NCBI GenBank assembly: GCA_025345505.1
Contig: JANVCC010000052.1
Location: 67,201-131,200 of the forward strand
From: Todiramphus chloris collaris
Taxonomy: Eukaryota > Chordata > Aves > Coraciiformes > Alcedinidae
Direction: 5' to 3'
Length of the DNA stretch: 64,000 bases
The number at the start of each line of letters is the position of its first letter. Positions within the stretch are counted from its first letter, which is position 1. The notes under the pieces are model-generated. The model saw only the letters and a program-made list of their open reading frames with translations, had not been told where the DNA came from and did not search any database. Position numbers and translations under genes: made by a program. Shown piece by piece: positions 12,423 to 64,000 of this stretch.

Positions 12423-25072
<12,650 letters not shown>

Positions 25073-52601: not shown

Positions 52602-55285
52602 TTAAGAAGCGTTGGCTTCAGCCCCAGCAGGTCGGCTCGGTGCCTCCTGGGAGAGCAGGGGGACAGGGGGACCCTGTCTCTGCTTGGTGCCAAGACGTGG
52701 CTCCTCCTCCCGTTGAGGTTGGGCATCGCTTGCTTGCCGTGAGCTCCTCTTGCTGTTCTCCTCTTGCAGTATCTGGCGGCTCTTCGCTGGTGGGGGAAGT
52801 TCTGCATCCTCTCGGCAGTGGTTGCCTTCATCTCTCTGGGGAGGTGGCAGACAGCTCTCCTCATCAGCTTGCCGGGCAGGCTTGCAGGCTTCCTGCGGCT
52901 CTGGAGCCTGGGGCAGAGGTGGGCAGCTCTTGGCCTCCCTGTCCTCACGCTCCCTCACCTGGGAGTTGGATTCAGGCTCCCGTGGGATCCTCTCCCTGTC
53001 AGCTTTTGATCCATCTCCCTGGGGTTGATGCCTCTTCTCTCCTGCATCAGGGATCTTGGGGTGCTGGCTGTCCCTCCTGTCTTCCCTGGGCTTTGCCCGG
53101 CAAGGGACACCCTTAGTGCCACCCAGCTCAGTGGCAGAAGCCTGGGGAGCTCCTTCCTTCACCCCTGTTTCAGACCTCTCCTGTGGCTTTTCAAGATCCC
53201 TTCTGTTTTCCTGGGAGCGAGAAGCTGGGCCCCCCCCTTGCTGCAGTGATTCGGGTTCCCCTGAGTCCCGCTCATCCCTCTGGGGTCGTGGTTCTGGATG
53301 GTTCCTCGTGTCACAGGGACCTGCAGGTGGCTGAGGCGACACATAGCACTTCTTCACATAGACAGGCTGGCCCAGGTCNNNNNNNNNNCTTCACGCTCTC
53401 GTGTCTCTCTCTGTCTGGTGGTGACATCTCGTTCTTCTCTTTCACGTCTCTGACGGCTGCGTCTCTCATAGTCCTCCAGGTCCAGTTCCTGCTGCCGATC
53501 GGTTCTCCTCTCCTGCACGGGCTCTTTTCTTCTTCCTATGTCATTCTGTTCATCCCACTCCAGATCCTCATTAATCTCTCTCTCACCTTCTAGATATTCA
53601 GTCTCCTGTTCCTGCCTCTTCCTTTGTTCATATTCACCGCGTCCTGGCTCACAGGTTTCGTAGCGCCTGAGGTCAATTTCTAGCGGTTCCCGTAGGTATG
53701 ACTGATGTGGGCGTCTCGCGTCCAGCCACTCAGCCTCACGCGGCTGGCGGCTGTTGCATTCAGATGCTTTTTGTTCCAGCTCCTGTAGGTGGTCACGGCT
53801 TTTCTCTTCTATGAGTAATTCAGGTTTCCGTGGCTGGTTGTGCCTTCCTCTATCTGCTTCTTGCGGCCACTGGGTTTTTTGATCGTACGCTGGTCTTGCT
53901 GGTTCCTGTGGCTGATGGCCACTCCACCGGTTTGGCAGCGGTTGAGGTTCACAGGTCTGGCTGCGACTCCTCACGTCTGCCAGTTGCTCTGGCCGAGGCC
54001 TCTCTTGACGTCTCCTCTCCTCTGCCTGCTGCCTGGGCTCCTCTGCTCGCACGCTGCTGCGTCTGCAGAGTTGGATGTCCTGTCTGGCTGGATCCGGTGG
54101 CTGATGTCTTCTCTGGTTGTTCCATCGGTCACGTGGCTCTCGGCTTCGTTCTTCATGTTCCTGAGGGATCAGCTCCCCCGGCTCACTGCTTCGTTTGCCC
54201 TCGTTCCTGCTTCGTGCATTACGTTGCTGGTGTTGGCTCCTCGTTTCGTCTTGTGTTTTGAGCTCTTCGACTCTGGGGTCTCGTCGCAGCTCAGGCTCGC
54301 ACCGCAGACGACGATTCCTCTCGCAGGTTTGTGGTTCCTCCTCCTGGAGCTGCCGACGGCTCCCTCTGCTCTTAATTTCAGGCTCTCGGAGTGACTTGCT
54401 GCTGGTTGTCAGCTTTGTCCTTTGCAGGAGGTAGGGTTCCGTTGGCAGGTACCAGTAGCAGGCCTTAGCCACTCTGAACACCAACAGCAGGAACTCATTA
54501 AAATCTATTTTCCCATCACTGTCCCACTCCAGAAACTGCAGAATCTTGTCAATCGTCTGAGGGTCATGTGGCTTCTGCACGGAAAAGATGCACAAGGAAA
54601 GAAGAAAAGCATTTTAGTCTTCCTGCTAATTGCAGGGAGGTGGAAAGACAGGGACAATTGAATCTTAAAATGCCCTGGATTGCAAGGGACCTTCAAGCGT
54701 TATCTGGTCCAACACCCCTTCAGTGAGCAGGGACACCCTCAACCTGATCAGGTTGCTCAGAGCCTCATCAATTGCAATCTTTGCTCCTTCCATCTCTCAC
54801 ACCTTTGCTTTTGCAGCTCAGCAACAACTCCATGCCTTTGTTCTCTGTTGTCCTGTCTGTCCCCTGGCTGCGGCTTCTCTCTGGGCTCCCCTTTATCCCT
54901 CCATCAGCTGCATTTCCTTCTTCCCTTTGAGAGAAAACTCCACAGTTTCTTCTACAGCTTTTGCCCATTACCTTGTGGCAAAATGGGCTGGAAGAGCTGT
55001 CAAAGCAGGAACAGTGCTGCTCCCCTTTGGTCAAAGCCTCCCTGACCCACTCTTATAGATCATCACCCCTTCTCCAGAAGGAGATCTTGCAGTCCCTGCG
55101 CTCCAGTGCTGGCCTTGAGCCCCCCGACCCCACACAGCAGCACTCACAGCTATGACATCTGCAAACTCCCTCTCGAGGAACTCTTTCATCTTCCTTCGGC
55201 TGAGGTTGGAGGCGTCTCCATCTTCCTTTGCGTAGTTGTGGAAGATGCTGATGATGGTGGAAACGCTGTCCAAGAAGCAAGACAT
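52602..55285 (-). CDS. SCFN: Scaffoldin-like S100-fused protein (trichohyalin-like)
   Basis: S100-fused-type proteins have an S100-like N-terminus and a long low-complexity tail and are cross-linked into cornified cells; avian scaffoldin is the trichohyalin-like member of skin appendages. Coding exons: 55285-55148 (46 codons, EF-hand 1) and 54574-52602, spliced in phase 0 (GTGAGT donor; TGCAG acceptor). Exon 3 starts KPHDPQTIDKILQFLEW, then EF-hand 2 (EWDSDGKIDFNEF; first loop position Glu not Asp), KACYWYLPTEP, and a tail very rich in Arg, Glu and Gln. A 10-N gap (53379-53388) interrupts the tail: 395 codons plus 1 nt precede it and 258 codons follow in another frame, so the missing length should be 2 modulo 3 if the gene is intact. 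The part after the gap starts DLGQPVYVKKC, is richer in Pro, Gly and Ser, and ends EANAS. At least 699 residues. Position next to S100A11 mirrors mammalian TCHH. Confidence 0.85.
53379..53388. other. Assembly gap (10 N) inside SCFN exon 3
   Basis: A fixed-size run of N within the Arg/Glu-rich repeat region. The reading frame changes across it, so it stands for an unknown length of sequence. Confidence 0.95.
54660..54785 (-). mobile_element. Old CR1 LINE 3'-end fragment
   Basis: In SCFN intron 2. Degraded start (GCCCTGGATTGCAAGGGACC) and GATCAGGTTGCTCAGAGCC. Confidence 0.8.
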
Positions 55286-56345: not shown

Positions 56346-56943
56346 TGCTCCGGGTGGGATCTCACAAGGCAAATGGATTTTGCCCAGAGGAGAACTCGGA
56401 TCACCTCGGTCAGAGCTACTTATTTGATTTTCCTGAGATCTGCTTGGCAGAAAGCAGTGCTCCTCTTGGAGCTTTGCATCTGGAAACCTCAAAAGCCACC
56501 TCCTTCCTCCCTTCCTTCCTCCTCGCAGGATTCCCAAGCCTGGTATCAGCTCCGACATCTTGGCATGCAGCTGGAGAAGCTGTGCCATGTCTGCCTTGCT
56601 GCCTCCTCAACGTGCACGTGAACACGCATGGGCACCCCTGCCCACCATGTCCTGGGCTTTGCCGTTTCTGTAGCAAACAACATTTCTCCAACCTGTTTGT
56701 TCTGTCTGGGGGCTCCAGACCAAAATAAGATACAAAACCTGTCTGCCTCTTGTTTTCCCTTCGAGAAAAGCTGCCTCTGTGCACAGAAACGTGAATAACA
56801 CAAACCAACGACTTCTACTGGATAGAAAAACAGAAGGCTCGCAGAAGATCCCACGGTAGGAACACCACCACCACCCAATGTGAGTCCTCGTGGAAGCCAC
56901 GAGTCCTCACCCAAGCAAAATGTGCCTTTCAAGAGCGACTTAC

Positions 56944-57059
56944 CCAAAATCACTGATGGGATCAAGCGGGGTTCCTGGGAAGCCGTGCGGAGTGATCAGA
57001 GGACCTGAGAGCTTTTATAGGGTCCCTTGACGGAGCTGCAGAGAGGAGACACCCTTTTG
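56944..57059 (-). promoter_or_regulatory. SCFN promoter and non-coding exon 1
   Basis: On the minus strand: an AAAAGGGTGTCTCCTCT element (57058-57042), then TATAAAA (57019-57013), CTGATC (56999-56994), a predicted start near 56988 and a strong donor GGTAAGT (GT at 56943-56942). Exon 1 would be about 45 nt, non-coding, as in other S100-fused genes. The following exon begins a few bases before the ATG at 55285, after a TGCAG acceptor. Confidence 0.8.
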
Positions 57060-58335
57060 TGGACGTTGCCCTGATTCATCTTTGGCCAAGCCCAGCTGCA
57101 CCTTCATGTCCTCAAACGGGTTATTTAACTTATCATCCCCTTCCCTATCATTTTAACCCAGAAATAGCTGTTGCCATGTGGCAATTCAGGCACTGGCTGG
57201 TTCCACCTCAGCCCGGACTGTAAAGTTATTTCTCAGGCTGGTTGTATTTTGGATTTGAAAAAATCTGGAGTAGCTATAAAGTAGATAATGTGTTACTGGG
57301 AGGGGCAGAAGAAGAGGTAAATGGTGAGATGCAGGTGCCCAGCAGTGAAACCCCCAAACCCTCCAGATCTTGGCCTCTCTGCTGTCCTCGTAGAGGGTTT
57401 TATTTTTGGCAACTTCTCATTAAGGAGCCTTCTTGTTAAATTGTCTAGGTTTTTATCGAGGTGGGGGGGGAAAACCCCAAACAAACCAAATGAACCACAA
57501 ACAGAACATTTTTAAATGTTGAAGTCTGCAAAATGAATTTTGGTACAAGAAAATATCTGCTCAATGAGCAGCGACTTTTCATTGAGAAAAGTCGTTATAA
57601 AGCAGTTTTCCTATTAACTGTCTTCCCCGAATGACTTCCATTTCAATTTTGCTTGATCTTTAATTAAAAATGAAAGCAGAAGCCTCTCTGCTGAGAGGTC
57701 GATTCATGTTGAGTCTTCATCTGGTGGCCCAAGGCAGCTTTTGCTGTAATTACCTCTGGAATCTTCTCTCTTTTTTTTTTTTATTAATATTTTAACAGTA
57801 AATTAATTAGAGACCAACTGATTCCTTTATTAACCCTGAACTCTCCCAGCACACAGAGCGAATAAGGAAGGCGCCAGCCGTGCCACCCGGGTCCCTGCCT
57901 TTGGTTTTGGAGGGAGGATGGTGCCTTGACAAGCGTGACGGAGACATTGCGGAGAGCCTTCAGAGCATGAACTTGTCACGCAGCCTTGGGTGAGTGGCTC
58001 ATCTGGCCCATCTCTAAGGTAAGATCATCCTGGGTGTAGGAGCCTAATTAATTAGTGCTGGTAACACCTCGGGGATACTCATACCAGCGCGTACGAAGGA
58101 TCGTTATTAACCGTGCTTCATTTTTCAGCTTTTTTTTCCGGATTAAATTACACTTGTGCAAATTATACCCCACCTGTGGGATAATAATACCCTTGGGAAA
58201 CTGTAATTTTATGGTAGATTGGAGTTATTATTAAAATTAGAGTATTAGAGTGCGGCTTGGTGTCCTGTAACAGTCAGTAATCCCCCCCCCCACACCTCCC
58301 GTTGAGGTTGGGGCAGTGTGGGGCGGTCCGTTGGG

Positions 58336-60757: not shown

Positions 60758-62110
60758 TTACTGTTGTGGTGGCCACTGATACAGGCACTGCTGGAGCTGT
60801 TGCTCTAGAGCAGGTTGTCTTCGGCCATGAGCATCTTGCCGCTGCGCTGGACAAGACGGAGACTCTGCCCTGCGAAGCTCCTGCTCCAGCACCTTGATTT
60901 CAGGGAGCTGATGGGAAGCTGGGTCACGGCGCATTCCCTGGGGCTTGGGATCCCAATGAGGACTTGGACCCCTCTGTGGGGGCAGCAGGTTCTGGGGCTT
61001 GCTGGGGTTCGGGTCCTGCCAAGAGGCTTTGCAGACCTGTGTCTTGTCTAGGTTTCTTTCTCCCGTCTCAGAGGGACAACTCAGGTCCTGCTCTACTGAC
61101 TCCATCTCTGAGCTCTGAGGGTAGTTTGAACCCCATCCTGGTGCCTCATTTTCTTGGTCCTGGTGGGTTTTTTGATCCTGTTTTGGCATCTCAGACTCTT
61201 TGGCCTTATTTCTATCCTGTTCTGAGGTTGCGATGTCCAGAATCTCGCCTCTTTCTGGATCCCCTTCTGCTGCTTCAGTCTCGTCATCCCTATGGGTACC
61301 CTGGTCCTCCTCTCGTGTCTCACCCTCCTGGATATGGTGGGGGTCCCGGTCCTTCTCTGGTGTGTCACCTTCCTGGATTTCACGGTTGGCTGGTTCCTGT
61401 GTCTCAGTGTCCTGGACCTGATTGCTCACACCCTGCTCGGGGACCTGCTGGTTGCGAGGGACCCTCCCCACCATGCGCAGCCCCAGCAGCTGCTCCCCAT
61501 CTGCCTTTTCTTGCTCTGTCAGCTCCTGACCATCTTCTGGTGCCTGGCGCTGCTGGAGCGGCTTGTAACAAGCCTTGGCCATGCAGAAAACCAGGCTGAG
61601 CAGCTCGCTGAAGCCAACCCTACAGTTGCTGTTGTCATCCAGGAAGCAGAGCACCTTCTTCATGGTTTTGGGATCCTGTGGGTTCTGGAAAGAGACAAAG
61701 GTGTTGGTAAAACCCATGACCCATTTGTGCCATTTCTCCAGGAGTGCTTGAGCAGGGTCAGGGCAGAAATCCAACCCCATGTCCCCGCACTCCCACAGCT
61801 CGTGTTGCTCCCCAACCAAGCTCTACAAGCTGCTGGCACTGGGAAGAGGAGCAGCCTCTCCTCTTCCCTGCAGACCCTGGGCTTTGAAGGCATCTGAGCT
61901 AGGTGTCCTGTCCACCCGCACAGGGCCATACAGCCCAGCCCCAAGGCAGACCTGTGGTGGGGGCCGGATCCTCACCTCCATTGCCTCGGCGAACTCCTGC
62001 TCGATGAGCTGCCTCAGCTCCTCCCTGCTCAGGGGGCTGTGGACGCCATCGCCTCCGGCACACGTGTAGAAAGCAGCAGCGATGCCACTGATGTCTGGGA
62101 GCTGGGCCAT
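60758..62110 (-). CDS. CRNN: Cornulin, S100-fused-type protein
   Basis: Cornulin is an S100-fused protein of stratified epithelium, expressed late in keratinocyte differentiation. Coding exons 62110-61976 (45 codons) and 61684-60758 (308 codons plus stop), phase-0 junction; 353 residues. Exon 2: MAQLPDISGIAAAFYTC, then an S100-type EF-hand 1 (AGGDGVHSPLSREELRQLIEQEF), the usual cornulin start. Exon 3: NPQDPKTMKKVLCFL, then a degenerate EF-hand 2 (DDNSNCRVGFSE: Asn at position 5, Cys for the invariant Gly at 6), KACYKPL, and a tail rich in Glu, Gln, Asp and Thr with loose repeats around E-x-EQD-type cores, ending QCLYQWPPQQ. The tail is shorter than that of human cornulin (495 residues). Same orientation and three-exon plan as SCFN about 5.5 kb away. 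Identification as CRNN rather than another S100-fused gene rests on the tail composition and gene order. Confidence 0.85.
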
Positions 62111-62666
62111 CTCCTTGCAGAACTGAGGCAGCCTGCGAGACAAACACAGACAAAAAAAACCCGGAGCTCTATTTTTGTTTATTCGCTTGGTTTTCAGTTA
62201 AGTTATTCTTAACCAACACAGCTGGGCAGGCAGGGAGAGAAAGAAGAGCCACTGGGGAGGGCACAGATAAAATGAAATGGTTCAAGGGAATGGAAAGAGA
62301 GAACAAGAAGCATCTCAGGGGGAAAAAACACCTGAAAAATGGAATTGAACTGGGGAGATTGTTGGGTGCGAGGAGCAGCAGGTGATGGACATGGAGACAA
62401 AAGGCTGAGGGGGGACATGGTAAAAGAGGAGAGGTAAAAAAAAAAAATTCCCTTTTGGCTTTCTCTGGAGCAGAGCTGTGGATGGAGGTTGTCGTTAAGG
62501 AATCATGGAATTTGTGGAATTCCACGTCTCTTTTATTATTATCTTTTTTTTTTTTCTTTTAGGAAAGCTCAACAGTGGCAGCTCCAGGGACATCTTCAGG
62601 GCCAGAAGGTCCTGCTTTCCTGCTGGGAGCAAAGTTAGACAGAGTGAAAAGCCCATCCAGGCTTAC

Positions 62667-62785
62667 CTGGGCGAGGAGTAGAAGTGCTGAGCTTCAGGAG
62701 CACGGTCTGGAGCAGATCAGCTCTTGGCCATCTTATATACACTTGAGGATCAGAACCTGCATCTTCTAGAGGAGACACCCCTTTG
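62667..62785 (-). promoter_or_regulatory. CRNN promoter and non-coding exon 1
   Basis: On the minus strand: AAAGGGGTGTCTCCTCT (62784-62768), TATATAAG (62739-62732), CTGATC (62720-62715), a predicted start near 62708 and a strong donor CAG/GTAAGC (GT at 62666-62665). Exon 1 would be about 42 nt. Exon 2 begins after a TCGCAG or CTGCAAG-type acceptor upstream of the ATG at 62110. Confidence 0.8.
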
Positions 62786-64000
62786 GCAGCACGACACGAA
62801 ACATCTCTCCCCTAATTACGTTGTCATGCCCCTGTCTTCATTTGTCTCTTTCTCATTAACTTCTCCTCTGAAGTTTTTTTTTTTTCCTCTAGAGCCAACG
62901 TGTGGTCCTTCCTGATCCTGCCCCACCTGCAGACTCATTTCAGAGGAATTTATCAGAAAAAGTCTATTTTTACCACCAGAGGATTTACTTGAAGGTGATG
63001 GCCGAGCAACACCCGCGACTCTTGTGTTGGGCGAACGTGTTTTGCGAGGAGGAGCTCGCCAGGGAAGACACCACCCAGCAGTGCTTGCACGGTGAGTACA
63101 GAGCAAAGACAACAAAGGAAGAAAAAATGAGGAGATCGTGATGCCAAGATTAATGCGATTCCTTCCAGAAACTCCCTCTTCTGGATCTTGACGGGAGGTA
63201 GGCGTCGAGTGGAAAAATTCTTTTCAAACAGTGCCACCAAGTGGCACTTGGAGCAGGACAGAGGGGTGACGTGGCCTGTCCCAGGGCCAGTGAGCATGAC
63301 GGGGAAACTGAGGCACGTGGCAGAAGCCCCTTCTGTGCCACTCCTGCACTGCACCAGTCCCCAGTTCAACTCTATGTACTGTGGGTGAGGCCACCCTACT
63401 GGGGCCCAGTAGGTTAACTGGGAGCCCCACAGATTTAAATGTTCACTCAGGGAAGTAAATTTTATGCCTCCCCTTGTTGTCTCATCACTCTCCAGCTGCT
63501 CCAAGTGCAGCATGGCATGAAAGTTGTTTCCCAGGCACTTTGAGTCAGACTTCCAGGTGTCCTCACTTGAGCTTTCCGTCTTTTAAAGTCCTTTTTTTTT
63601 TGGCCAGTACACTGATAAATAAGAAAGACTGGGGGAAAAAAAAAAATATATATTAGAAATCTATGGAAAAAGTGATATTAGAAATCTATGGAAAAAGTGA
63701 TATTAGAAATCCATCAAAAATATTGGAAATTAATGAAAAAAAATATTCAAAATGAATGAAAAAAATGGTATTAGAATTCCATGAAAAAATATGATATTAG
63801 AAAACCATGAAAAAAATGATGTTAGAAATCCATGGAAAAAAAAGATACGAGAAATCCATGTAGCTTTTAACGTACAAGGTGTTTCAGGCATGGAAAAGAA
63901 GATAGATCCAGTTTTGTACTACAAAAAGCAATCCAAAAAGCACTTGTAGGAAACTGCCCTGGTTTGCTCCGTGCCTGGCAGGGGGCTCGTCCTGGCTGAA
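62786..64000. other. Intergenic upstream of CRNN, no gene recognised
   Basis: No frame resembles a further S100-fused, beta-protein or PGLYRP gene. From about 63640 the sequence becomes A-rich with a degenerate repeat. Confidence 0.45.
63645..63860. repeat. Degenerate A-rich tandem repeat
   Basis: About nine units of roughly 20-25 bp of the form GATATTAGAAATCTATGGAA plus an A run, with substitutions and variable A-run length. Confidence 0.85.

Follow-up and report, generated by a model that had tools for sequence, protein, structure and literature searches.

The window, that is the whole stretch of 64 kb analysed here, covers C36:67201-131200 of a 1.17-Gb assembly. On its minus strand lie two adjoining genes, SCFN and CRNN, each with an S100 domain that is split across two coding exons. 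The gene names are those of the original prediction; they agree with the S100 domain, with the layout and with tails rich in repeats. In the PDB, the SCFN domain matches S100 proteins; filaggrin's comes third, behind two chimeric constructs. Both genes have a TATA box followed, about 70-76 nt downstream, by the sequence-predicted donor of exon 1. The features are listed below.

57042..57059, minus strand: SCFN shared element CAAAAGGGTGTCTCCTCT, the 17-mer of the original prediction plus one matching base
62768..62785, minus strand: CRNN shared element CAAAGGGGTGTCTCCTCT
57013..57019, minus strand: SCFN TATA box TATAAAA, starting at 57019
62733..62739, minus strand: CRNN TATA box TATATAA, starting at 62739
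56989..56995, minus strand: SCFN initiator-like TCACTCC, inferred transcription start (by the general initiator consensus)
62704..62710, minus strand: CRNN initiator-like CCAGACC, inferred transcription start (by the same consensus)
56938..56943, minus strand: inferred donor GTAAGT of the SCFN non-coding exon 1, 99 nt from the 3' end of the element
62661..62666, minus strand: inferred donor GTAAGC of the CRNN non-coding exon 1, 102 nt from the 3' end of the element
57072..57078, minus strand: AP-1-like TGAATCA in the SCFN promoter
55148..55285, minus strand: SCFN coding exon 2, which encodes the first half of its S100 domain
61976..62110, minus strand: CRNN coding exon 2, which encodes the first half of its S100 domain
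60758..61684, minus strand: CRNN coding exon 3, open up to the stop

The reading frame of CRNN is uninterrupted over both coding exons (60758-62110, minus strand); cornulin has been reported missing in songbirds (PMC10801484), and the source species is therefore probably no songbird. In SCFN, exon 3 (52602-54613, minus strand) is broken by a short N run from about 53354 to 53390, which hides the length of the gene in this haplotype; for scaffoldin of chicken a length of about 3200 residues is reported (PMC10801484). An N run is also enclosed by a long AAGGAG-type simple repeat at 16800-17700 of the window.

The original prediction described a 17-nt element common to the two promoters, ending 22 nt before the TATA box in SCFN and 28 nt before it in CRNN. 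Read again on the minus strand, the letters are AAAAGGGTGTCTCCTCT at 57058-57042 for SCFN and AAAGGGGTGTCTCCTCT at 62784-62768 for CRNN, and the match gains one upstream base (C), so that 17 of 18 nt are identical (CAAARGGGTGTCTCCTCT). Re-measurement gave the same two gaps. The element lies about 49-76 nt ahead of the inferred transcription start, and the two promoters have matching geometry, since the exon-1 donors are at nearly equal distances from it (99 and 102 nt). The AP-1-like word TGANTCA, present in SCFN, is absent from the CRNN stretch 62666-63068. The shared element is thus confirmed and goes beyond chance, and the case for it is a computational one, built on one genome.

Further EDC DNA was added from C36:131201-198140 and C34:198001-288000, where cysteine-rich EDC genes and corneous beta-proteins (beta-keratins) are found; the Pfam family Keratin (PF02422) was run on two of the beta-proteins and the others were judged by eye. 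C36:131201-198140 contains no copy of the 18-mer at three or fewer mismatches. There is a copy with four mismatches at C36:182813, 21 nt before the TATA box of a beta-protein gene, and promoters were therefore listed by the presence of a TATA box and an exon-1 donor, which gave 27 and then 25 candidates. A de novo motif search in 14 of these promoters, with those of the S100-fused genes (SFTPs) excluded, returned TG[TG]CTCA at widths 12 and 15. In 12 of the 14 promoters the width-12 search puts its best site 17-23 nt ahead of TATA; with width 10 a different word won and its positions are scattered. The width-12 profile places the SCFN element as the top site of 200 nt and the CRNN element outside the top three.

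For counting, three staggered duplicates among the 25 candidates were merged and three promoters were dropped, leaving 19. The dropped ones are 237314 and 240246, where no gene was seen, and 248565, as 250395 is nearer to the same gene. Four of the promoters kept (141862, 154184, 175811 and 197282) belong to frames that were absent from the first listing and found later. TGNCTC occurs at a gap of 22-32 nt to TATA, limits set once the sites were known, in 7 of the 19 promoters, the gaps being 25, 25, 27, 27, 28, 29 and 29 nt; if none is dropped the count is 7/22, because the dropped promoters have no TGKCTC. All seven boxes continue with A (TGNCTCA). As a control, a region five times wider holds one such site, and in 2000 shuffles the mean is 0.206 and the maximum 2. 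When all windows are searched, the best 6-mer with one N is found in 8 of the 19 promoters, a number that none of 150 shuffle sets equalled. Six of the seven carriers are beta-protein paralogs and the remaining one is EDDM-like, a label taken from its DPCC repeats and from the listing in PMC8394334; the other 12 promoters are without the box. In the S100-fused genes, TGTCTC stands 26 nt before TATA in SCFN and 32 nt before it in CRNN, the latter 3 nt outside the 25-29 range.

Aligned on TGNCTC, SCFN reads CACAAAAGGGTGTCTCC and CRNN GCCAAAGGGGTGTCTCC. The beta-proteins read CACAAAGGATGTCTCA (231221), CACAAAGCTTGGCTCA (201551), GCAAAGAGGTTGTCTCA (182852) and CCCGAAGCGTGGCTCA (221100), and there are two more without CAAAG, GCATGGGGTGGCTCA (227071) and GTGCAGCGTGCCTCA (240822). 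The EDDM-like box is CCCTGAAGTGTCTCA (141862). The two SFTP boxes read TGTCTCC and all seven others TGNCTCA. When the seven boxes are made into an 18-column profile, the SFTP element takes first place among 283 positions in SCFN as well as in CRNN, at 12.6 and 11.5 bits against 5.1 and 6.1 for the runners-up. It is still first in both when C36:182852, the member that was found by similarity, is left out, and a profile of the five other beta-proteins gives it first place in SCFN and second place in CRNN. The flank letters alone (182852 excluded) tie the SFTP element to the other boxes weakly, as among 552 other TGNCTC sites 16 and 34 reach an equally high score. By the same flanks, a leave-one-out comparison does not recognise the EDDM-like site or 182852, for which 363 and 123 of the 552 sites are as good.

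The pattern AAGNNTGKCTCMN{18,34}TATAWAA gives 66 rows genome-wide and 67 in the control. On C34 it has five rows, all of them at 124-302 kb; 0.055 would be expected for a contig as long as C34. Four of these were already known (SCFN, 201545, 221094 and 231215). The fifth, C34:301995, falls in previously unread DNA; its letters are CACAAAGACTGTCTCA, placed 25 nt ahead of TATAAAA, and it has a donor at +68 and lies upstream of a beta-protein frame. For C34 from 248 kb to its end, about 0.04 rows are expected. The looser CAAAN{3,5}TGKCTCMN{18,34}TATAWAA has 78 rows genome-wide against 62 in the control. Eleven of the 78 are in the EDC, namely six distinct C34 promoters together with two rows on C35 and three on C36, which we take for haplotype copies, and the other 67 are near the control level. 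Since this pattern was derived from the same six promoters, its result speaks for specificity and not for discovery. In 210,651 nt of EDC sequence the box, searched without TATA, occurs nine times, and six of the nine lie 24-31 nt before a TATA box (25 nt in SCFN and 31 nt in CRNN); among those six, one had been found by similarity and one had been fetched owing to the pattern match. The excess of boxes is thus local to the EDC, as genome-wide the looser boxes have 66 and 78 rows and their controls 67 and 62. Another pattern, GGGTGTCTCC before TATA, was rejected, with 31 rows genome-wide against 81 in the control and so no excess.

The element is most likely one of a limited number of TATA-proximal boxes in the EDC cluster. 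The earlier proposal that it co-ordinates the two S100-fused genes is supported as to a kept site that both promoters share; "two S100-fused genes" is probably too narrow, because related boxes precede beta-keratin and EDDM-like genes.

The original prediction also likened the GGGTGT core to a KLF or CACCC box. The minimal KLF4 core is RRGGYGY, and longer forms are RRGGYGYRRY and CCACRCCC. The minimal core is present in both copies of the element, and this part of the likeness stands; the window holds the same word 106 times, or 1.66 times per kb. As to the longer forms, RRGGYGYRRY is missing from the element and occurs in the SCFN promoter at 57104-57095, and CCACRCCC is in neither the SCFN nor the CRNN promoter. 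The part in common with other cluster promoters is CAAA..TGKCTCM, and most of the related boxes lack GGG. A KLF4 reading is weak because this shared part is not the KLF core.

For AP-1 the consensus is TGASTCA, and the two promoter stretches scanned do not contain it. All seven boxes outside the SFTPs are one base off TGACTCA; their third base is T in three, G in three, C in one and never A. For this reason, and because the SFTP form has a final C, no box is an AP-1 consensus site. Consensus words for GRHL, p53/63, NF-kB, TFAP2, TEAD and TCF, searched in about 400 nt per promoter, were rejected as none falls within the element; one GRHL-like word is at 57122-57115.

The published literature bears on these readings. 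For SFTP promoters, putative sites of KLF4 and AP-1 have been described (PMC5366951, citing Mlitz 2014). They are in the TATA-side proximal promoters of the same family, and, similarly, our element contains the minimal KLF4 core and SCFN has an AP-1-like word. The published KLF4 site, compared by its description, may be the same as the element, and the available part of that article mentions neither the 18-nt extent nor a likeness to beta-keratin promoters. It has further been reported that EDC genes have in common a TATA box, a non-coding exon and AP-1 sites (PMC11431283) and that the proximal promoters of avian EDCRP are conserved (PMC4423139). SCFN, CRNN and the other promoters follow this scheme of TATA and exon 1, while a box 24-31 nt before TATA goes unmentioned in the accessible portions of both sources. 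In a literature text search the string GGGTGTCTCCTCT was not found, and no such box is named in titles and abstract openings among the matches listed. The earlier statement that no description was known has to be read with caution, since putative SFTP sites are in print (PMC5366951) and the box itself may have been described before.

From this an alternative can be formulated, in which the site is confined to the S100-fused genes, is likely the published SFTP KLF4-type site, and resembles the beta-keratin boxes by coincidence. It would fit the minimal core, as generally given, in both copies, the reported SFTP sites (PMC5366951), the weak tie by flank letters, and the observation that deletion of a KLF motif weakened a zebrafish periderm enhancer (PMC7039683). 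However, the frequency of the core in the window, the longer forms lying elsewhere or nowhere in these promoters, the missing GGG in most related boxes and a conservation that spans 18 nt, well beyond a KLF core, all argue against it, and we consider it a doubtful, if serious, candidate.

A second alternative is chance, as scanning 64 kb will turn up such pairs. All our chance tests on the SCFN/CRNN match are post hoc, i.e. chosen once the match was known. In the window, the SCFN and CRNN elements are the only two sites at three or fewer mismatches, and at least two such sites are held by 26 of 100 shuffled windows. Plain BLAST of an 801-nt promoter against the window gives an E of 0.15. Local alignment at any offset reaches the observed score in 2 of 2000 shuffles for the 451-nt promoter pieces and in 2 of 5000 dinucleotide shuffles for the 300-nt promoters (Gumbel p 6e-4). 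Collinear alignment, anchored on the exon-1 donor and allowing +-10 nt, reaches it in 0 of 4000 shuffles, with a Gumbel p of about 2e-5. Real DNA was compared as well: among unmasked 451-nt pairs from the repeat-rich window 115 of 2794 reach the score, and among repeat-masked collinear 300-nt pairs 4 of 39,479, or about 1e-4, three of the four being a single poly-T pair. The strength of the match is that two paralogous promoters match at the same place.

The genome-wide numbers enter on both sides. The exact 17-mer is found at 7 places in 1.17 Gb and its reversed control at 4, both counts being lower bounds since the search omits simple repeats and very common words. C34 carries the same locus as the window, with 99.5-99.7% identity where the two were compared, and the loci on C12 and C13 are 99.6% identical; the C34 copy and the C12/C13 pair are likely haplotype copies, the other haplotype having been left in the assembly. 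Merging the haplotypes leaves four distinct places: SCFN, CRNN, C12/C13 and C31. At the C12 and C31 places, loci of 3 kb were examined, and no EDC-like gene was found among their open frames of at least 60 codons. A copy number close to that of the reversed control, like the BLAST and shuffled-window values, is what chance would give; yet two of the four places are 5.7 kb apart, in paralogous promoters and at a matching distance, and the collinear and masked comparisons make this hard to obtain. On balance we regard coincidence as unlikely. A search of genome_contigs and viral_contigs for stray bird DNA with relatives of SCFN or CRNN found none.

The original prediction had further offered a selected binding site, or alternatively a kept remnant of tandem duplication, and had described the surrounding promoter DNA as diverged. 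The last is borne out: with the element set aside, 1154 of 3000 shuffles align as well as the upstream 150 nt and 1316 of 3000 as well as the downstream stretch of about 100 nt. Homology past the element was accordingly rejected, global alignment over these stretches being at shuffle level. The S100 domains of SCFN and CRNN share 37 of 91 residues, 141 of 273 coding nucleotides and 34 of 91 third positions, and at the rate of identity in third positions the probability of at least 17 of 18 identical letters is about 6e-7. CRNN orthologs are known in mammals and sauropsids (PMC10801484), so the split between the two genes is old. The genes do adjoin, both have S100 domains and their exon layout matches, as a neutral leftover of duplication would have it. 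However, with flanks and third codon positions saturated and the split old, such a remnant is disfavoured, and for a short gene-conversion tract 18 nt would be unusually short; we find either version very improbable. An island of identity in saturated DNA instead supports the selected site, which is likely.

That the element is a fragment of a repeat family deserves next to no credence, because the exact 17-mer is at so few places (7 against 4 in the control), the C12 and C31 loci have only a 181-nt stretch in common, which lies over 1 kb away, with no shared flanks at the element, and self-comparison of the window masks neither promoter, all in line with the earlier view that no transposon explains the match.

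Our preferred reading is that the element is a putative proximal transcription-factor site, selected in both S100-fused genes since a very old duplication, and we consider this about evenly balanced between right and wrong. The analysis shows the letters and their position, the island of identity, the scarcity of the element in the genome and related boxes in register ahead of other EDC genes; from these we infer binding, the kind of factor, an effect on transcription and a shared origin of the boxes. In the proposed mechanism, a factor of keratinocytes or of the periderm would bind the box beside the TATA complex and help to recruit that complex as the cluster opens in differentiating epidermis, and SCFN and CRNN would be switched on via the same site. 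Both genes have been reported in chicken periderm (PMC10801484) and both are enriched in embryonic scales (PMC8394334).

More tentatively, and with somewhat less confidence, one epidermal factor may read the CAAA(N3-5)TGKCTCM box of the S100-fused genes and of the unrelated beta-keratin and EDDM-type genes. If true, families without common coding ancestry would be co-expressed partly via a core-promoter module that was spread or kept across the cluster, and the box may help to switch on skin-protein genes jointly. This bears on how structurally unrelated epidermal genes in one cluster are turned on together, and it would tie periderm scaffolding proteins to scale and feather proteins at the level of the promoter. 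A box shared by S100-fused and beta-keratin genes, its distance to TATA nearly fixed, would offer a concrete site for mutation.

Several beta-protein promoters in C34:198001-288000 share more letters than the box, often CCAGGC 10-20 nt before TATA, a possible second element.
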